Positions 7,485-59,300 of a stretch of 64,000 nucleotides of DNA are shown piece after piece. The notes beneath the pieces were generated by a model. That model saw nothing but the letters and a program-made list of their open reading frames with translations. It had not been told where the DNA came from and did no database searches. Source of the stretch: Erpobdella octoculata (taxonomy: Eukaryota; Annelida; Clitellata; Hirudinida; Erpobdellidae); assembly GCA_963978895.1 (NCBI GenBank), contig OZ022242.1, positions 21,963,129 through 22,027,128 on the forward strand, in the 5' to 3' direction. A program made the position numbers and the translations under genes. Positions within the stretch are counted from its first letter, which is position 1. Every line of letters begins with the position of its first letter.

Positions 7485-7801
7485 AACAGAGACGACGAGT
7501 TAATAAAAGCATTGGTAATAAAAAGGCTTTTTTTAGTTCTAGAGTGGTAAATCTATGGAATGACTTGGACGATGACACTGTAGCATCTGAGACTACCACA
7601 TCTTTTAAAGTAGCGCTATCCAGGCATGTATACTGATTTTTATACAAATTATTTATTTTTTATTAGTTTATTTATCTATTATTATCATTTTCATTTATTT
7701 TATTTTATTCTATTTATTATTATTTTTATTATTATTTATTTATTTTTAATTCGAAGTAGTTGTCTATAGCCGTAAAGTCTTCTAAACCACTATTATAAAC
7801 G
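7485..7801 (+). mobile_element. LINE (CR1/L2-like) 3' end
   Basis: One frame reads KAFFSSRVVNLWNDLDDD and TTSFKVALSRHVY then stops at about 7634. This is the conserved last segment of CR1/L2/Rex-type ORF2 (the family pattern is FFS-RV-N-WN-LP ... FK-L). About 165 bp of 3' UTR follows and passes directly into the (TTATC)n tract, as CR1/L2 elements end in short tandem repeats. Everything upstream of the C-terminal segment is missing, consistent with 5' truncation. Confidence 0.7.
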
Positions 7802-8721
7802 TTATCTTATCTTATCTTATCTTATCTTATCTTATCTTATCTTATCTTATCTTATCTTATCTTATCTTATCTTATCTTATCTTATCTTATCTTATCTTAT
7901 CTTATCTTATCTTATCTTATCTTATCTTATCTTATCTTATCTTATCTTATCTTATCTTATCTTATCTTATCTTATCTTATCTTATCTTATCTTATCTTAT
8001 CTTATCTTATCTTATCTTATCTTATCTTATCTTATCTTATCTTATCTTATCTTATCTTATCTTATCTTATCTTATCTTATCTTATCTTATCTTATCTTAT
8101 CTTATCTTATCTTATCTTATCTTATCTTATCTTATCTTATCTTATCTTATCTTATCTTATCTTATCTTATCTTATCTTATCTTATCTTATCTTATCTTAT
8201 CTTATCTTATCTTATCTTATCTTATCTTATCTTATCTTATCTTATCTTATCTTATCTTATCTTATCTTATCTTATCTTATCTTATCTTATCTTATCTTAT
8301 CTTATCTTATCTTATCTTATCTTATCTTATCTTATCTTATCTTATCTTATCTTATCTTATCTTATCTTATCTTATCTTATCTTATCTTATCTTATCTTAT
8401 CTTATCTTATATTATCTTATCTTATCTTATCTTATCTTATCTTATCTTATCTTATCTTATCTTATCTTATCTTATCTTATCTTATCTTATCTTATCTTAT
8501 CTTATCTTATCTTATCTTATCTTATCTTATCTTATCTTATCTTATCTTATCTTATCTTATCTTATCTTATCTTATCTTATCTTATCTTATCTTATCTTAT
8601 CTTATCTTATCTTATCTTATCTTATCTTATCTTATCTTATCTTATCTTATCTTATCTTATCTTATCTTATCTTATCTTATCTTATCTTATCTTATCTTAT
8701 CTTATCTTATCTTATCTTATC
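7802..8721. repeat. (TTATC)n pentanucleotide tract, about 184 units
   Basis: 920 bp of uninterrupted TTATC, with a single visible variant base at 8411 (A for C). It starts at the 3' end of the LINE fragment. On the minus strand each unit carries an AGATAA/GATAA core. Confidence 0.97.
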
Positions 8722-9372
8722 TTTAAAAGTAAACATGACCTAATATATGAAATAAAATTTTAATTATATATTTGCAGTTCATATTTTTTCCGGCACCCTT
8801 GATTTGTTGTCAGCCGTGACAACCCGGTTGGGAAGCACTGACTTAAGTTATAATAGCTACGCACATTTGAGATTCTGATGCTACTCAACGCTGCGTTACT
8901 CAATTACTCAAAACTTAATATTCTGACCTAGTTAACTATTGACCTAATAATTGTTTGGTTAAAAACAATTTAATGCTCAGACTCGTAAGCATTACTAGTT
9001 TTTTTTTTAAAAGAAAAACTGCAGACTATAATAATCTACTTTTCATGACTTAAAAACAGTGTTGACAACTTGTAATGCTTATGGGCCTTTGATATATTAT
9101 TTCAATTGTTTAAATTTTAAGACTCACCTAACGTAATTGTTATTAAATGTCAAAGTTAGTCACACAACGGAACGACAACGATGAAAACTATTTTTGGAAA
9201 CAAAAGTGCATAGATTATTAGAAAATGTTTGAAAATGATACTTCGACACTATTAACACCCACCCACCAAAGTTTGGATACCCTCAGGAAATTGCTGAAAT
9301 GACGCTCCACAGAATGACAAATTTTCTGTAATTTTCTGGAGGAAACTCCTTCTCGTTTTTAAGGCGGTTCTC
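8722..9372. other. Intergenic DNA with one hAT-like terminus
   Basis: At 8814-8842 the string ccggttgggaagcactga reverse-complements to TCAGTGCTTCCCAACCGG, a typical hAT (Zaphod/Charlie-like) end. No partner end was found. Positions 9228-9310 share a phrase (caaagttt ... ttgctgaaatgac) with 19165-19205, so another dispersed repeat is present. Confidence 0.35.
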
Positions 9373-42686: not shown

Positions 42687-43658
42687 TAGAGATGCTCTGA
42701 TACCATAAATATGGCTGATACCGATACTCATATTATGAAAGAGGCTGATGCCGATACTTTTCAATATTTAATTATTCATTTGTTACTGCTTATATCATGA
42801 TGATACTTTATTGAAATATTTCAATAGAATTCAAATAATAGTTACTTTATAGTTAATATTTAAAGTTAAATATTCTTAAATTATAGTGAAGAAACATCAG
42901 GCTTTCACTCGTATCTGGAGAGAGCCAGTTTCTCTTGGGGGTGTAGACATTTCCTCCAATACTGAATACCCTTTCGCTTTCAATTGAAGACGGAGGTAAT
43001 GATAAATATTTTCTTGCAATAGGTGACAGCATTGGCAGCATAGTTTTATTTTCGTTCCACCACATGTAAGGATCCTCATCTCTTGGCATGTAAGATAGGA
43101 ATTCGTAGATTTTCATCTTATGCTTTAACTCATCAATTTGAAAATTGGTTTTGGACGTTTGCCGTTTTAGTTTGGATCCCTCCGAATCCTTTGATTTGTA
43201 TTCTTTAGAGGATTTTGCCAATAATTCATCCATGCATTGGTCAAAATCCATCGTCTCTAGGACATCTGGGTCATCTTCAGCCGTAGCTCCTCCAATATCA
43301 TCCTCACTTTCAGTGCTATCGCCAGCTGACAGCACTGTTGTAGCCTTTGCTTCCTCTGATATTCTTCTTTGATGAGCGCGAGCCAACTCCTCTGTGATGC
43401 TTCATCTTTTTAGCATTGAGCCTGAGGTTGAAGGTTCAGTAACTTCAGTCTCACTCTCATTGGAACTTGCTTCAGGAAAATAGCTCATCTTATACCTTGG
43501 ATCAAGATATGTTGCCAATATTATGTCGAAATCATCTTTATAGCGGACCAACTTTTAATAGAAATAAGTAAATAGTCAAAAGTCTCGGTATCGGCCAATC
43601 ACCCTCAAAATTTTACCAGGCCAATACAGACGATATAGATAGTATCGGTGCATCTCTA
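42687..43658 (-). mobile_element. Short hAT element with TAGAGATGC ends
   Basis: Ends TAGAGATGCTCTGATACC and GGTATC-like ... GCATCTCTA are inverted. Flanking octamers gtggaaac (42679-42686) and gcggcaac (43659-43666) agree at 6 of 8 positions, an aged target duplication. Only the C-terminal transposase region remains, so it is a deletion derivative of a zBED-type hAT. Confidence 0.8.
42853..43386 (-). pseudogene. hAT transposase C-terminal part
   Basis: The minus-strand frame ends SPIARKYLSLPPSSIESERV then FSIGGNVYTPKRNWLSPDTS and LMFLHYNLRIF, the hAT dimerisation domain (family pattern: A-RYL--PASS--SER-FS--G). An acidic, Ser-rich segment precedes it. There is no ATG at the 5' end (the frame opens on a TTG) and no BED finger or catalytic Asp, so the copy is truncated. 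Confidence 0.8.
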
Positions 43659-45024: not shown

Positions 45025-45222
45025 TATTATCTCCGACATGTGATGATCTACCATTTAGGAGCGCAGAATGACACACTCTGTGGTAATGAGCTTCTTCAGC
45101 TGGTAAGTCATTGCATGAATTTAACCTACCAAGAACTTCTACACTCCATGCATCATTTCTTTTGTGGCAAGTTTCAATTATAGTTTCTCTGAATTTCAAT
45201 GTCATCACAAAACTTGATTCTT
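45025..45222 (-). repeat. 198-bp direct duplication inside the transposon, 3' copy
   Basis: Matches 46526-46723 with one difference seen by eye (ggagcgcag versus ggaacgcag). It repeats the coding segment for SSFVMTLKFRETIIETCHKR ... HSALLNGRSSHVGDN, but is joined to the ORF in a different frame. Confidence 0.95.
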
Positions 45223-47120
45223 GAATGCACAATATCAACAGCCTTTAACCACAGCGGCTGGTCGAAAGTCACACAAGCCGTTGGAATGTTCAGCTTTTCA
45301 GCCTGGCGTTCTATGAAAGTTAACGTGGAAAAAATACAAGACATGTCATTAGGATTCAAATCAATAATCGGAAGCATCCTTATGTCTGATGATGATCTGA
45401 AATCTCCGTCTGGCTTACAAGCATGTTCCATAAAGCCAGACCAATTTGGCCTTTGCTGATCTTCATCTAAGCACAAGATACCGATTTTCCAGGCAAGTTC
45501 CAAGTTTAAAGAAGGAGGCAACACAGAAGGAAAATTTAATTGAGAGATGGGCTTGAAAGACATCAATGATAATGATGACTTGTCGGGGAATGTGTATCCC
45601 AATATAGGAATACCTCGGTTTTTCACTACACAACTGGATTTTAGGCGTGACAATCGGGGTACAGCTGATTCAGCAAAGTGTCCTGACCCTAATCGATTAC
45701 ACGGAGTAGACATTGATATGATGCCCATACCGTGAAAGGTACCACTTCCATCTAAAGTGATAACGTTGTGGTCAAGATTATCACCAGACCATTGCGTAAA
45801 ACATTGAGGAAAAGACTGAGGAGTATCAGGGGAGTCATTCTGAACCACTGATTGTTTAAAAAGTTTAACTTCATCATATGAAATTGAAAATCCCAACCGT
45901 GACAGCAAATCAAGCAGCCATCTAGATCCAAAGGCGTGATCTAAACTAACTCCAACTCCAAACAAAATTGGAGAGATAAGAGATCTTTGTCTTGCCGCCT
46001 GCACAATAGAATGACATATGGAAACTTGTTTTATTTCATTACAAACAACATTTTCTATTAAGATTTTCAACAGACTAGGAATCCACCTTTTGGCATTTTC
46101 AATATTTGAGAAATCATCAGTTCCTGGATATGTTTCATTATTTGAAGACATTTCCCTTATTTGAGCTCTTATCAATTTTGCTGCTGCCACTATGATACGT
46201 TCACTCTCATCTTCTATGCTACTCTTTTTTTCAGCATACCATTGCTTAGTTATAATGTGAGATGCCATGTTACGGAAGCAAATAACATTTTTCCGACCAC
46301 AAACTTCGGCAAAAAATATGTGCTCAGCGTAGCGTTCTTCCAGCTTTCGTTTTATATGTTTTAATGAATACACTTCACCATCTTCCGATAATTCCTGCAT
46401 TTTAATTTGCAATTCAGCTATTGTACAAATTCCTTGATCTTCTTCTTCTAACCAGTCACACAGTTTTTCAAAAGTAATTAACATGTCGTTATCTGGATGT
46501 CGACCTGGATGGTTTCGGCCAGCGGTATTATCTCCGACATGTGATGATCTACCATTTAGGAACGCAGAATGACACACTCTGTGGTAATGAGCTTCTTCAG
46601 CTGGTAAGTCATTGCATGAATTTAACCTACCAAGAACTTCTACACTCCATGCATCATTTCTTTTGTGGCAAGTTTCAATTATAGTTTCTCTGAATTTCAA
46701 TGTCATCACAAAACTTGATTCTTCTTTTAAATATTTTCTACCGTCTCCAAGATCTATTTTTCCACACAAAAAACAATGTTGCTTCCAATTGAAAGTGTCG
46801 ACAGACGATCGTAATAATTTACACTTAAAATTCTCTTGATCAACACCAACACCTTCTGCATGCTGCTCATTCTTTCGTTGCAATTGATCGAAACTTCTTT
46901 TGTTAGTGTAGTCTCTCCGGCAATGGTCATGAACATTAGCTACATTTGGTTTATTTAACAGATACTCTGTTAACTGTTCATCACCACGTAAAACGCTGAA
47001 TTGACATAACGTTTCAATACCTTTAACACCTAGTGTAACCATCTTGACTGTATCACAGACGTTGTCGGAACGGAATTCAGTTCGACAAATTAAACATACC
47101 ATTTCATTTAGTTCACCCAT
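45174..47120 (-). CDS. Transposon protein with N-terminal Cys/His motifs and two conserved Asp blocks (candidate transposase)
   Basis: I take ATG at 47118-47120 (MGELNEMVCLICRTEF) as the start; 649 codons follow. The first ~200 residues hold Cys/His pairs: CLIC, HDHCRRDY, CFLCGK and HYHRVCHSAF. The second half has NLDHNVITLDGSGTFHGMGI, and about 170 residues later PTACVTFDQPLWLKAVDIV. Proteins with such DNxDHN-TLDG-TFHGMG and TFDQPL blocks are common, uncharacterised and repetitive in invertebrate genomes. I infer that the two Asp residues are the first two of an RNase-H-type DDE triad: each ends a hydrophobic strand. The frame enters the duplicated 198-bp segment right after DIVHS and terminates within it in another frame, so the natural C-terminus, including any Glu, is missing in this copy. 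Family assignment is open. Confidence 0.7.
   Translation of the reverse strand: MGELNEMVCLICRTEFRSDNVCDTVKMVTLGVKGIETLCQFSVLRGDEQLTEYLLNKPNVANVHDHCRRDYTNKRSFDQLQRKNEQHAEGVGVDQENFKCKLLRSSVDTFNWKQHCFLCGKIDLGDGRKYLKEESSFVMTLKFRETIIETCHKRNDAWSVEVLGRLNSCNDLPAEEAHYHRVCHSAFLNGRSSHVGDNTAGRNHPGRHPDNDMLITFEKLCDWLEEEDQGICTIAELQIKMQELSEDGEVYSLKHIKRKLEERYAEHIFFAEVCGRKNVICFRNMASHIITKQWYAEKKSSIEDESERIIVAAAKLIRAQIREMSSNNETYPGTDDFSNIENAKRWIPSLLKILIENVVCNEIKQVSICHSIVQAARQRSLISPILFGVGVSLDHAFGSRWLLDLLSRLGFSISYDEVKLFKQSVVQNDSPDTPQSFPQCFTQWSGDNLDHNVITLDGSGTFHGMGIISMSTPCNRLGSGHFAESAVPRLSRLKSSCVVKNRGIPILGYTFPDKSSLSLMSFKPISQLNFPSVLPPSLNLELAWKIGILCLDEDQQRPNWSGFMEHACKPDGDFRSSSDIRMLPIIDLNPNDMSCIFSTLTFIERQAEKLNIPTACVTFDQPLWLKAVDIVHSRIKFCDDIEIQRNYN
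46526..46723 (-). repeat. 198-bp direct duplication inside the transposon, original in-frame copy
   Basis: The in-frame coding copy of the segment repeated at 45025-45222; 1501 bp separate the two starts. Confidence 0.95.
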
Positions 47121-47398
47121 TTCGAAGAAAAACAATAAAAACTCCAAAAAATAGATGTTTTACAAAATACTAACTTAGAAATTCGATGTTTTACGACAAT
47201 TTACGAAAATGCTAACTTATCGCTCACTACGGTAAATCTCTTACAAAAAAGCGTCAAAAAACCAATTTCCTATTTGACGATTTCAACCGATTTTTGCAGG
47301 AAGATTCATAAACGTATTACAAACAAAATATCCGAAAATCAGCTTGCTTCAAATTTTGTCTAGGTACAACAAGGAAAATTTTTAATTCTCCTGGACTA

Positions 47399-53369: not shown

Positions 53370-56300
53370 TCAGAGACCCTCAAAAAACTGAACTCTTGAC
53401 TTGGCCGTTCCAACTCTTATCTGTATAAAATAAACAAGAAAAGTGTAAAAAATAAGGTTTATTTTAATCCTTTTTGATTTCTGTAAAATATGAAAACATT
53501 GACATTCAACAGAGCTGCAGCTCTGAACAGCTCCCCTTAAAAACAAAACAACACAAGCCATGAAATAACCATAAATTTGCCATGTTTTTCGATTCGGGGT
53601 TCTATGTATCAACTGTTTACAAACAAACATTAACAAATATTGAGACGCTGGTGGCATTAATGGCTGGTTAAGCGTTCGCCTGTCGATCGTTAGGTCGGCG
53701 GTTCGGGCATCACCAGCAAAACTCCCTTTGTCTTCTAAATACTTAATATGTGAAGTATGTGAGGATTGAAAATTTGAGAAAATTTAGAATCAATAGGGAA
53801 TAAACAATTATTTTATAATAAATTTTTAAAATTGAAATATTGCTTTCTTTAAAGAAACATTTATTATTGGATTGTTTTTCTAAATAAAATTGGATTGGAT
53901 AACGGGAAGTTAGTTTTTTTGAATGGTATAGGGTCCCAACGTATGGTTCAAGCCGGCAAGCAACAAACACGGTCAAGTTAATATAAAGGATTTAAAAAGA
54001 GCAAAAAGCAAATTTAGCAAAATCAAACAATTAGGTACATATTTTGTTTTATAAATATGGCTTATAATTTAAAAATGAATAGAAATACACTTTTATAAAA
54101 TGCTCTAAACAGTAGAAAATAAGTTTTCTAAACATAAAAGTGTGGGGCACTATTTTTGCACTCCAACGATCGCTGACATAAGCAGCAAGCACACCACTCC
54201 TTTATGTTTAGAAAATTTATTTCCTACTTTTTAGAGTATTTTATAAAAGCATGTTTTTATTTTGTTTAAATATTAATTTATTTCAGTTCAATTGGATAAC
54301 GTTAAGTTTGTTAATTTTCCCTTCCAAGACTTGTTGAGGACAACATGAAAAGACATGTTAAGCTGAAGAAAAGTGTGTAAAAAACATAGTGTGTTTTGTC
54401 AACTGTCTGCATGTTTAAAAAAGTTTAAAATAGCATTTAGTTATAAAAATGTATTGGTTTCTCTAAAATCATACATCGACATCACACTTGATGAGTTGAT
54501 ATAAGCATTGTAAAAAGATAAAATCTCTAAGCCACATAATTGAAATACAAATAATTTATCAGATGCTGGAACAATTTTTGTTAAATCTTGATTAAACTCC
54601 ACCCTCAAAGATGTGGGTACAAGATCACATAAAAACTGCCCATACACAGACAGGTGGTTCAGTATGGTATCTCGGAAATGTGGTCACTTCACCCAACTTC
54701 TTAAAAATCTCCACTGGCTTCGAATCCAGCAACAGATCGAGTACAAGATTGCAACAATAGTGTAACGGTTGTTACTAATTTTTACTAATTCGTAAATAAT
54801 TATTTTTATTATTTTTATTATTTATTTTTTTATCTGGGGTGTTAAATTAAATATCTATTATTTTATCTTTTATTTCTATGTTATGTGACGATATGACGGA
54901 TTTGTTTTTAAAAGATTATGATATTAGCTGTGTGCTTCGTGCTTTGCTTCGTGTTAATAAATTGTAGCTGTGTGCTTCGTGCTTTGCTTCGTGCTAATAA
55001 ATTGTAGCTGTGTGCTTCGTGCTTTGCTTCGTGCTAATAAATTGTAGCTGTGTGCTTCGTGCTTTGCTTCGTGCTAATAAATTGTAGCTGTGTGCTTCGT
55101 GCTTTGCTTCGTGCTAATAAATTGTAGCTGTGTGCTTCGTGCTTTGCTTCGTGCTAATAAATTGTTGCTGTGTGCTTAGTGCTTTGCTTTGTGCTATTAA
55201 ATTATTGTTTCGTGCTTCGTGCCTGACTTCGTGCTAAGTTGTTGATTTGATTTCTCTGTGTGTTGTACCTTGGGAGCTGATAAAGTTTGTGGGTACCTCA
55301 GACTTGTGGTGTCTAAATAAATAAGAACCTGAACGCCGGCTCCTGTTGAAGATTTTCCTCATCGGACAACCGACGTTACATTTCTGGCGCAGTCGACAGG
55401 ATCAGCATCAACATCGCTGATCTTCATCACAAGGAACGGGCCTACTCAACCAAAGTCTCGCCGAAAAAATCAAGGAAATTTTCTGTGTGGATTCTGTTAG
55501 TTTCTTTTTTTTTTTTGTCATTAGCAAGTTATTGTCAGTACTGTAGGTTAGTGATCAATTAAGGTAGTTAGGATAATGAATACACCGATATCAATGGTGG
55601 CGGAGAAAAGCTCACGGATTGATTCTGAAAATGAATCGCATGGAGAGGAGTCGCCACTAAGGCGTAACATAAGTTTTACAGGAATACAATACGAGAGAGA
55701 TTTAGCGGAGAGGATAAGACAGGAGGAGCGTGAGGACCGCAAAGAGAAAGAAAGAGAGGAGCGTGAGGACCGCAAAGAAAGAGAGGAGCGTGCGATGCGT
55801 ATAAAATTAGCTGAGATAGAGAAGGAAGTGAAGTTGGCGGAGTCACAATCACGGCACGCACGCGATGATGGTTATGGCGTGTATAATAATTCCGAACGCG
55901 AGACCTATATTCGCAAGGTAAACATTGTTAAGGCAGGATTAATGCCATTCCCTACGGAAAAGGTCGAGTTACCGGCGTTTTTTAAATATCTGGAGGACGA
56001 ATGCCGTTGCCAAGGGATCGATATATCTGACCAAGGGGAAATGCTTAAAGGCATCGTGGCGGCGCGAGCGGATAATTTATTATATCGTATACCCGTAGAA
56101 CAGCGGTATAATTACCATTTCCTAAAACAAGCGATTCTTCGGGAATATGGTATTCATCCTGCCACACTTAAGAACGCCTTCGATAACGCCCAGCGCAGGC
56201 GCGACGAATCATTTACAACGTTTGCCACCAGAATACACAACCTCTGCACATATTATTTAGATAGCTGTGGTGCAGATGGCAGTTACGACCGAGTAGTAAG

Positions 56301-59300
56301 CATCTTATGTGCCGATAAGATCAAGCAAATACTTCCCCGGGATTGTTTAAATTATGTCATTGATCGTCCAGGTGAAGTCGATAATTGCCATAAGCAAGTT
56401 GCTGAGCACGCAGACAACTATGTTCTGCTACATAAAAACACTATGTATAACACAGCATCCAAAATTCCTTCTCGATCTAGGGACGAAGAGGAATCGACTG
56501 GCCTACAACGGGATAGACCACCTGTAGCTCCCCCGACTTATGCACGGCCTATTTCTCAACCCTCGAAAACTAGCGTAAGCGGTAACATTCGAAAGTGCTA
56601 CAACTGCGGTAAACTAGGTCACGAGGCACGCGAGTGTCGAGGAACTAAGGTGTGTACTAATTGCCAGGAAGTGGGTCATGCAAGTCAGCTCTGCCCACGC
56701 AACCCCACTAGAGCTAATATATGTCACGTAGATCCTCTAGGAGTAGATAATGAGGCGTTCGAAAGTTATTTCCTTAATGTAAGGATCGGTGATGTTGCAC
56801 CAGTGAGAGCCCTCAACGACAGTGGAGCTAACCGTTGCTGTATAAGGGCCAGTTTGGTTGATATTCATCAATGCCCCATACAACGTCAAGGCGTGTTGCG
56901 GGGAGCGATAGTGGGTATCGAGCAACCGGTTACTCTGGTTGAACTAACTATAAGGCCTTATTTCTCTGATGACCAATATGTTAGCATAGCCCCGACGATT
57001 AAAGAGTGGTTTGCAGTGGTAGATAACCTCCGGGAGGAAGCCCTCTTAACTCCTAGCGTAGTCAAAAGAATCCAAGCGTTGAAATCCTACGAAATGGTTA
57101 CAGCTAGCGCAGCAACCATAGATATAGAAAAGGACGGCGGCACATCGCCAACAGATGTTGAAATAGTAAGGCCAGCCAATACGAATGGAACGATTCAGGA
57201 CCTCAAGCCGATGCAGAGCAGCCGGACCTCAGCGTATCAAATTCACTTACACCAGGCACCAAATATCCAGCCCAGAGTTGATCAAGAAACTTTGATCATA
57301 AATGAAATACAAAGACAGCTGACGAATGAAGAAAGTAAAATACAGGACAGGTCACATTTACCTCATCATCCTCCTTCCTCTACTACTTCACCGTCATTGT
57401 CACAACCATTTTCCGGGCTTCCTTCATCTGCATCTCAATTTCAAGAGTCGACCAATCAATTTAATCTCGATCTTCAACAAATCGAATTTTCTCCTGTGAT
57501 AAAAAACAAATTAGAAGACACTGAAGCTCTTGATGGTTTTCGTTCAAACAGTCCTTCGCAGGGTGCCAGACATTCTCCGCGAAACAAGTTTAGAGTTCAC
57601 TCAAAGACAAACTCCGATTTCGACAGCAGCAACAGCGATCGAACTACTCCTGTTTTGTTATACCACGTTTTGAATTCAAATGCTGCAAACAACTATCTAA
57701 CAGTTCACGCACAAATGTTACAGCAGATCTTGATTGAAGATGGCCGTTCTAATCGATACAAAAGACGAGCAGCCTCTTGTTCAGTGCCATATCTTACGGC
57801 CTCCGTTCGGTTAGGTAACAAAAAACTTCTCGTAGAATCCGTCACCCTTTACACAATTGACTACCAACGAGAGTTTGGTTTGGCTGTCGATGCAAGCGCG
57901 GTAGCCGTTGGATGCTGCCTCTTCCAGTGGAACGCGAACCGAGAGGAACAACCCATCGCCTTTGCCAGTGCTAAACTCAGTGACACACAACAAAGATGGG
58001 CAACCATCGAAAGAGAAGCCTATGCTGTGGTGTGGGCTCTCCAAAAGTTCAAAGGGTGGTTGCTGCTTTCACAGGTCACGGTCTTCTCCGACCATAATCC
58101 CCTTACGTTTCTAACGGAAGTATCGACAAAAAGTTCAAAACTTACAAGATGGGCCCTTGCACTTCAAGAGTTTGATCTTCAGTTCAAGTACCGGGCGGGA
58201 CGAACCAACATTCCTGCCGATTTCATGTCACGGTCCATAGAAGACGACGGCGCTGAGGTTCCCTCCACAACGATCAAGAAAACTATACAATAATGTAACG
58301 TGAGTTACGGGTGTTGATAACATTGCATTCCACCCTTAACTACACTCTTTTTGGGTAGGGAGGTGTAACGGTTGTTACTAATTTTTACTAATTCGTAAAT
58401 AATTATTTTTATTATTTTTATTATTTATTTTTTTATCTGGGGTGTTAAATTAAATATCTATTATTTTATCTTTTATTTCTATGTTATGTGACGATATGAC
58501 GGATTTGTTTTTAAAAGATTATGATATTAGCTGTGTGCTTCGTGCTTTGCTTCGTGTTAATAAATTGTAGCTGTGTGCTTCGTGCTTTGCTTCGTGCTAA
58601 TAAATTGTAGCTGTGTGCTTCGTGCTTTGCTTCGTGCTAATAAATTGTAGCTGTGTGCTTCGTGCTTTGCTTCGTGCTAATAAATTGTAGCTGTGTGCTT
58701 CGTGCTTTGCTTCGTGCTAATAAATTGTAGCTGTGTGCTTCGTGCTTTGCTTCGTGCTAATAAATTGTTGCTGTGTGCTTAGTGCTTTGCTTTGTGCTAT
58801 TAAATTATTGTTTCGTGCTTCGTGCCTGACTTCGTGCTAAGTTGTTGATTTGATTTCTCTGTGTGTTGTACCTTGGGAGCTGATAAAGTTTGTGGGTACC
58901 TCAGACTTGTGGTGTCTAAATAAATAAGAACCTGAACGCCGGCTCCTGTTGAAGATTTTCCTCATCGGACAACCGACGTTACAAATAGTACATAAATCCT
59001 TACATGGCCAAGCTCCTCTATACCTGTCTTTTGCCCATGTCACAGACGTACCGGGAAGGCGAAGGATTAGATAATCATCCAGGGGGTTTTCTCTTGACAC
59101 CGCCGACCCGGCCCATCGCTCGACTGAAAATCCATCGACATCATCAGGCCTAAAATGTGGAAAAAACTTCCTCACCATATCACCATTTCATTTAGCTTAA
59201 CCAGCTTCCACACAGCGCTCAAGATTTTTCTATTCATGAAATCCTCTCTTCTTGTTAACAGTGGTCTTGAAGTTCAAATGAACATAATGCCACTTAAATC

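Follow-up and report, generated by a model that had tools for sequence, protein, structure and literature searches.

The window, the whole stretch of 64,000 nucleotides of Erpobdella octoculata DNA analysed here, contains a chimeric LTR element that spans positions 54761-58983. Its parts are as follows.

54756..54760, no strand: target site duplication AATAG, left copy
54761..55380, plus strand: 5′ LTR of 620 bp, with TG..CA ends and an internal 40-bp tandem repeat array
55385..55402, plus strand: probable primer binding site TGGCGCAGTCGACAGGAT, starting 4 nt past the LTR and presumably of the tRNA-Ser type
55576..58293, plus strand: open frame of 905 codons (Gag, zinc knuckles, protease, captured Mondo segment, RNase H)
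55576..56715, plus strand: Gag region, matching the complete relative L014 at 95-99%, with its CCHC knuckles at 56596 and 56653
56716..57129, plus strand: protease region with DSGA at 56818, weak Pfam match (E = 0.059), 95-99% to L014
57130..57255, plus strand: part of the element that stems from an older chimeric lineage, at 82% to L014 and 86-87% to the old Mondo chimeras L015 and L017
57256..57285, plus strand: captured end of host Mondo exon A
57286..57826, plus strand: captured host Mondo exon B, which follows exon A without the 234-bp intron
57820..57826, plus strand: 3′ junction, where the Mondo match overlaps the match to the complete relative
57859..58173, plus strand: RNase H domain (Pfam PF17917), residues 762-866
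58353..58363, plus strand: probable polypurine tract GGGTAGGGAGG, recognized by eye
58364..58983, plus strand: 3′ LTR, identical to the 5′ LTR
58984..58988, no strand: target site duplication AATAG, right copy

An earlier note, made from the letters of this stretch alone, had described an unbroken 905-codon frame between identical-looking LTRs with a perfect target duplication, and all of these are present: the two 620-bp LTRs show 0 differences and the 5-bp AATAG is repeated exactly. The frame holds, as that note had read it, Gag, zinc knuckles (two of CCHC type, at residues 341 and 360), a protease-like DSGA (residue 415) and RNase H (Pfam E = 8e-32), and neither reverse transcriptase (RT) nor integrase families occur among the Pfam matches to it. 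The LTRs with TG..CA ends, the short target duplication, the Gag zinc knuckle, an aspartic protease (a sub-threshold Pfam match plus the DSGA) and an RT-type RNase H are those of a Ty3/Gypsy element; an RT and integrase of its own are lacking in the window copy and present in L014. Integrase lies downstream of RNase H in most Gypsy elements, and the same order would be expected under the earlier assignment to Mag. L014, however, has the order Gag-PR-IN-RT-RNaseH (H2C2 at 607-664, rve at 710-784, RVT_1 at 1103-1256), with integrase upstream of RT, and the Mag assignment has to be given up. Integrase upstream of RT is the arrangement of the Gmr1 clade of Ty3/Gypsy as outlined in the relevant part of PMC8220671, and L014 is likened to this clade by its domain order. 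Because integrase and RT both lie at the slot in this order, the loss of both in the chimera amounts to one replacement. The window element belongs to a Ty3/Gypsy family whose domain order is of the Gmr1 type, and is itself non-autonomous.

The earlier note had also proposed that residues ~516-760, with junctions near 57120 and 57855, are a foreign segment derived from a spliced host message. The segment is indeed foreign, but its extent is residues 561-751 (57256-57826), its junctions lie at 57256 and 57820-57826, and residues ~519-560 are older-lineage element sequence. When compared with the host, as that note had advised, the segment matches exons of the Mondo/MLXIP gene at the C5 locus (84% and 82% DNA identity). 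The joined C5 exons match MLX-interacting/Mondo proteins (543 at E ≤ 1e-3, best 2e-32; each of the 120 listed covers only part of the query), and an adjoining exon shows similarity to ChREBP (E = 1e-14). The 234-bp intron missing from the window copy has GT..AG ends in the host gene, and the older copies L015, L017 and L020 lack a second intron (779 bp) too. Host and window copy are separated by indels of 9, 12 and 222 nt, all multiples of three. The largest, in host exon B and near 57561-57571 of the window, was at first a 232-bp gap in the host match; its reading as an intron was rejected because the host frame runs open across it, with no canonical splice sites, and it is thus a 222-nt loss. 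A FAM117 identity of the segment (Pfam E = 0.002, below cut-off) proved a false lead. The chimera is thus real, an LTR element carrying a spliced piece of the host sugar-sensing gene Mondo in place of integrase and RT.

All chimeras compared (10 loci) share the same host start base and the same 222-nt loss, which argues for a single capture; at the site of that loss, 12 of the 13 other young copies agree with the window copy without a mismatch. The chimera tree, rooted on the host sequence and without support values, is no test of single capture. Judging from the dS of 0.31 between host and chimera, the capture is old, and the immediate donor may therefore have been a Mondo retrocopy that is lost or was not seen or, should the element have crossed a species boundary, the gene of another species.

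Recent transposition of the chimera, also claimed earlier, holds for the insertions and not for this old capture. At least 14 copies including that of the window share the chimeric segment with 98-100% identity over 57000-57900 (40 of 75 candidates scored), so the further genomic copies for which the earlier note had advised a search do exist. Among 12 comparable copies, the two LTRs differ by at most one substitution in 11 and by four in L032, with one gap each in L026, L027, L031 and L032; target duplications of 4-6 bp were found in all 12, and the insertion flanks are distinct in the 12 copies compared. The chimera was inserted recently. Its Gag and protease backbone is 95-99% identical to L014, whereas 57130-57255 reaches only 82%, and these identities mark the window copy as a recent mosaic in which a young backbone carries an old cassette.

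The RT-bearing parent sought in the earlier note has a counterpart in L014 and its kin. Among 45 matches of a 5′ pattern, 29 carry host sequence, 12 are of the integrase type (six with open frames of 1490-1508 codons) and four are fragments; a 3′ pattern gave 46 matches, 42 within copies already seen and four new. Both searches reach members at most three mismatches away, and an eIF3a match at C1:19083249 falls outside the count. Gag relatives elsewhere comprise three distant matches (24-29% identity, best E = 1e-36). The complete relatives are candidate helpers, which would mobilise the chimera in trans. In a sister branch the slot is occupied by eIF3a (E = 1e-13), with five introns of the host gene absent. 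This cargo shows 94.6% identity to an intronless copy on C2, compared with 78-86% to the intron-bearing gene, so that, on identity, the intronless retrogene is the likelier donor. No third host gene was found downstream of the 45 matches or in the four new copies, that is, among members within three mismatches. Recombinants join eIF3a to Mondo (L018) or to integrase (L047, L053, L065), and the family branches thus exchange parts.

Could the segment be a fast-evolving Gag-Pol spacer or a decayed RT, the outcome that the earlier note held would overturn its reading? It is Ser/Pro/Asn-rich and has no Pfam match above cut-off, as such a spacer might; its match to the Mondo exons, and the integrase and RT that occupy this place in L014, leave that idea practically no weight. 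Only slightly better placed is a reversed transfer, in which the C5 exons were derived from the element. The direction of transfer cannot be read from DNA similarity by itself, and the Mondo orthologs listed cover part of the query only; the C5 gene, however, has introns at the junctions, lies amid exons on one strand for the Mondo conserved region, bHLH and C-terminus, and holds the 222 nt that the chimeras lack, and the eIF3a case, with clear homology to human-type eIF3a, runs in the same direction across five introns. We therefore regard this reversal as highly improbable.

The source of the cargo deserves more weight, since transcripts of genomic retrocopies, or read-through of them, might have served as donors instead of spliced messages of intron-bearing genes. 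The high identity of the eIF3a cargo to the C2 copy speaks for this. Yet the 5,000 non-N bases of L062 contain no element sequence on either strand, though the retrogene there is immediately preceded by N, and no Mondo retrocopy occurs among the 40 of 75 candidates scored; within the frame the cargo is also flanked on either side by parts of the element, an arrangement that read-through would not produce by itself, and retrocopy donors are on the whole unlikely. It is less likely still that the cargo benefits the element as a protein, for example as a Gag-Mondo fusion acting on the host or on RNA packaging. The frame does run from start to RNase H end in six of nine young gag-bearing and three of five gag-less copies, and the indels keep to multiples of three. 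Against this, w for the window copy versus L017 (0.55) and L015 (0.87) lies within neutral simulations, the segment has 16 nonsynonymous against 3 synonymous-only variable codons among nine young copies, L016 has a stop and L017 has frameshifts. Codon tests and neutral simulations on the window copy versus L015 and L017 thus detected no protein-level constraint on the cargo.

What we consider very probable is capture of a spliced host message, mosaic renewal and recent spread with RT and integrase supplied in trans, and a second branch with eIF3a. Long ago, RT in a virus-like particle would have left the element RNA for a spliced Mondo/MLXIP message packaged alongside it and then returned, leaving host coding sequence in frame where integrase and RT had been. 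The microhomology at the junctions, read by eye, is short, which weighs against this account. Recombination later placed the old cassette (about 57130-57826) in a backbone taken from a modern complete element, restoring RNase H, and the mosaic spread recently to at least 14 sites, presumably with RT and integrase from complete relatives. The second branch would have captured eIF3a, probably from the intronless retrogene, with later exchange of parts. More tentatively, and with chances somewhat short of even, the place between protease and RNase H may be a permanent cargo slot that host messages enter repeatedly (Mondo, then eIF3a). Recombination in particles would then shuffle the cassettes, and the leaders with or without gag, from branch to branch; cargo-bearing branches, which outnumber complete ones, would persist by renewing their backbones from the latter, and the family would operate in an animal as a long-lived satellite system for gene shuffling.

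Maize Bs1 and the retroviral oncogenes are the best-known cases of host-gene transduction by LTR elements. To our knowledge, Bs1 lacks RT. As far as the parts of PMC13317346 and PMC5408686 on Bs1 describe it, that LTR element carries pieces of three host genes in its coding part. The present family likewise holds spliced host coding sequence within an LTR element, and the chimera itself multiplied to 14 near-identical copies; it differs from Bs1 so described in its animal host, in two cargos in separate branches at one slot, in young complete relatives and in recombining branches. LTR-mediated retroposition in metazoans, as summarized in part of Tan et al. (2016; PMC5408686), copies host mRNA into LTR elements via template switching at microsimilarities, whereas the product here is a multi-copy element family that kept moving. 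The chimera also resembles acutely transforming retroviruses in that host sequence replaces replication genes in frame and a helper would be needed; unlike them, it has no envelope that we could see and no sign that cargo drives spread. In those retroviruses it is host coding sequence that takes the place of the replication genes, in frame and with dependence on a helper. No description of such a cargo-carrying family was found in the open-licence literature searched, and we regard this one as a new variant of Bs1-type transduction.

These results suggest that a chimera formed long ago can stay mobile via a backbone refreshed from complete relatives. One animal genome holds intron-bearing donor genes together with complete relatives, two kinds of cargo, older and younger generations, and recombinants, and with much of the process side by side, capture, cargo exchange and helper dependence are therefore testable in one genome.

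The element at 54761-58983 of the window had been described in an earlier note as a young LTR element with Gag, zinc knuckles, a protease motif and RNase H, in which a foreign stretch replaces reverse transcriptase (RT), and the description holds. Its parts are:

54761-55380, 5' LTR, 620 bp
55385-55402, likely primer site
55576-58293, open frame, 905 codons
58353-58363, polypurine run
58364-58983, 3' LTR, 620 bp

The two LTRs show 0 differences over 620 bp and contain a 40-bp tandem repeat, AATAG adjoins both ends of the element, and Pfam recognises zinc knuckles and RNase H in the 905-codon frame, none of its hits being to an RT or integrase family; the foreign stretch matches host Mondo exons at 57256-57826. 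LTR length ranges from ~412 to 621 bp among the window copy and loci L011-L033, in line with a changing number of the internal 40-bp repeat. By eye and by motif, the flanks (54620-54755 and 58989-59180) resemble the 3' portion of a non-LTR element of L2/CR1 type, inside which the insertion would lie. An inverted repeat (54069-54270; 77-nt arms, 82% identity, 48 nt between) lies 0.5 kb upstream. The window also holds a 661-codon frame (45174-47159, minus strand), a frame resembling a hAT dimerisation domain by eye (42853-43401, minus strand), and a ~1-kb pentanucleotide array (7776-8763) with three open frames and LILSY repeated.

A DNA search of the leech's own genome (386 Mb, 94 contigs) with window 57000-57900, in which 40 of 75 candidates were scored, found at least 46 matches; at least 14 copies, the window's own counted, cover the whole query at 98-100% identity, and at least 32 are partial. 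Two adjoining partial matches (C5:10999776-11000544) represent the host gene. Window 57256-57285 corresponds to the end of one C5 exon and 57286-57826 to the next; the 234-bp GT..AG intron between them is absent from the element, the joint differing by one base. Older chimeras (L015, L017 and L020) enter a third exon and lack a 779-bp intron there as well, with a 14-24-nt gap in a CAA/CAG-rich stretch beside the joint. These results support the earlier proposal that a spliced host mRNA was captured. A stretch of 222 nt of the second host exon, without splice signals, is missing from all 10 chimeric loci compared with the host. Aligned to the window across this site, 12 of the 13 other young copies show no mismatch, and L032 shows a small gap. 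On sequence similarity the source gene is identified as Mondo/MLXIP. The joined exons retrieve MLX-interacting/Mondo proteins of many animals (543 at E<=1e-3, best 2e-32), which align over 3-44% of the query among the best 120 of the 543; this establishes which gene it is, though not conservation of the captured exons in other animals. A same-strand exon near the C5 matches resembles the conserved region of ChREBP (PDB 5f74, E 1e-14), and what by motif are a bHLH start and a C-terminal exon lie on the same strand. In L019 and L020 the Mondo segment is broken at nearly the same place (near window-equivalent 57555-57571) by insertions of unlike lengths with 8-bp overlaps, near the 222-nt deletion site.

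An RT-bearing relative of the chimera was found in L014, whose 1498-codon frame encodes integrase (residues 607-784), then RT (1103-1256), then RNase H (1348-1452), and whose LTR pair differs at 1 of 536 bases; three more distant relatives (P0001, P0010 and P0026) share this domain order. Because integrase lies before RT in the complete relatives, one replacement removed both. PMC8220671 gives the integrase-before-RT order as the mark of Gmr1 elements. With integrase upstream of RT in L014, the Mag label is wrong by domain order.

A pattern of 29 bases just upstream of the slot between protease and RNase H, allowing up to 3 mismatches, had 45 matches, followed by Mondo (15), eIF3a (11), eIF3a then Mondo (1), eIF3a joined to integrase (2), integrase-type sequence (12, one internally deleted) or fragments (4); host sequence is carried by 29 of the 45. 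A second pattern, 32 bases in RNase H, had 46 matches, 42 of them in copies already counted; the 4 new ones are two integrase-RT copies whose 5' part is absent from the sequence read, another eIF3a-integrase hybrid and an old Mondo remnant. As counts of repeats, both totals are lower bounds. The matches of the two patterns revealed no third host gene. The 11 integrase-type matches other than L014 show integrase in the ~950 bp read past the slot border, a stretch short of RT. For 11 of the 12 the starts of the two patterns are separated by 2,594-2,596 bases, the L014 spacing, which fits uninterrupted integrase-RT; L045 has an internal deletion. The frame is open over 1490-1508 codons in six of the 12.

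The second cargo, a piece of eIF3a, occupies the same slot in L011-L013 (L011 tested, E 1e-13 to PDB chains). An intron-bearing eIF3a gene on contig C7 has six exons across the captured span; another eIF3a chimera, L049, lacks the five introns (~80-140 bp each) and is 78-86% identical to this gene. An intronless copy (L062; G000:C2:1244000-1252500, minus strand), whose frame extends uninterrupted from the border of an N run to the stop codon and which is possibly a working retrogene, shows about 79-88% identity with the C7 gene and 94.6% with the L049 cargo over 754 gap-free bases. Because this exceeds the 78-86% for the C7 gene, the C2 copy or its transcript is the likelier donor. By eye, the two cargos have 5' breakpoints no more than ~3 nt apart in the element, which may reflect a hot spot or the replacement of one capture by another.

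That the chimera itself moved recently, which the earlier note thought probable, is borne out by LTRs and target sites. Among the 12 Mondo copies compared (L021 and L024 left out), LTR pairs differ by at most one substitution in 11 and by 4 in L032, with one gap each in four; the single difference in several may be one flanking base inside the chosen coordinates. All 12 have target duplications of 4-6 bp, with flanks that differ between copies. The eIF3a chimeras L011 and L012 show LTR differences of 0/412 and 0/504.

The host gene and the window cargo differ by a dS of 0.31 and a dN of 0.14. That the chimeras begin at one point of the host message and share the 222-nt loss argues for a single Mondo capture; the Mondo-segment tree, rooted on the host sequence and without support values, is no test of this. 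The window copy is 95-100% identical to L014 throughout except at 57130-57255, where identity is 82% to L014 versus 86-87% to the old chimeras, so the window element joins an old cassette to a young backbone. Most of RNase H is missing from the old chimeras L015, L017 and L020, so the 3' junction (57820-57826) was made later. The Mondo-segment tree mixes gag-bearing with gag-less copies on very short branches, gag-less leaders accompany eIF3a too (L012 and L013), and L018 has eIF3a joined to Mondo. Members of the family exchange parts. In the gag-less leaders (L012, L013, L028-L031 and L033, both cargos) window position 55842 is joined to 56997, and some repeat a coiled-coil stretch.

The frame is unbroken from its start codon through the end of RNase H in six of nine gag-bearing young copies (L025 loses the end alone) and three of five gag-less ones, and the host-window indels of 9, 12 and 222 nt hint that an open frame matters. 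Variable codons of the segment in nine young copies are 16 nonsynonymous versus 3 synonymous-only. Between old and young chimeras, w values of 0.55 (bootstrap 0.35-0.90) and 0.87 both fall within neutral simulations, giving no sign of benefit from the cargo protein. RNase H and protease appear constrained, which could stem from recombination with complete relatives. The open frame may be kept, perhaps because it shields the RNA from degradation, even as the amino acid sequence drifts.

The chimeras still have their LTRs, a primer site and a polypurine tract, and often still encode Gag. Because RT and integrase are absent yet the insertions are fresh, we infer, as the earlier note did, supply in trans: most likely, particles of the complete relatives package the chimeric RNA, provide both enzymes and now and then incorporate a cellular mRNA, and template switching by RT would then create cargo and reshuffle backbones. 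Maize Bs1 holds three host genes (PMC13317346, PMC5408686), and LTR-mediated retroposition in animals is described as proceeding by template switching with mRNA (PMC5408686); the Mondo and eIF3a chimeras are events of the same kind. What is new, as far as the literature searched shows, is an animal family in which one slot holds two cargos, the complete relatives are young and sequence passes between branches.
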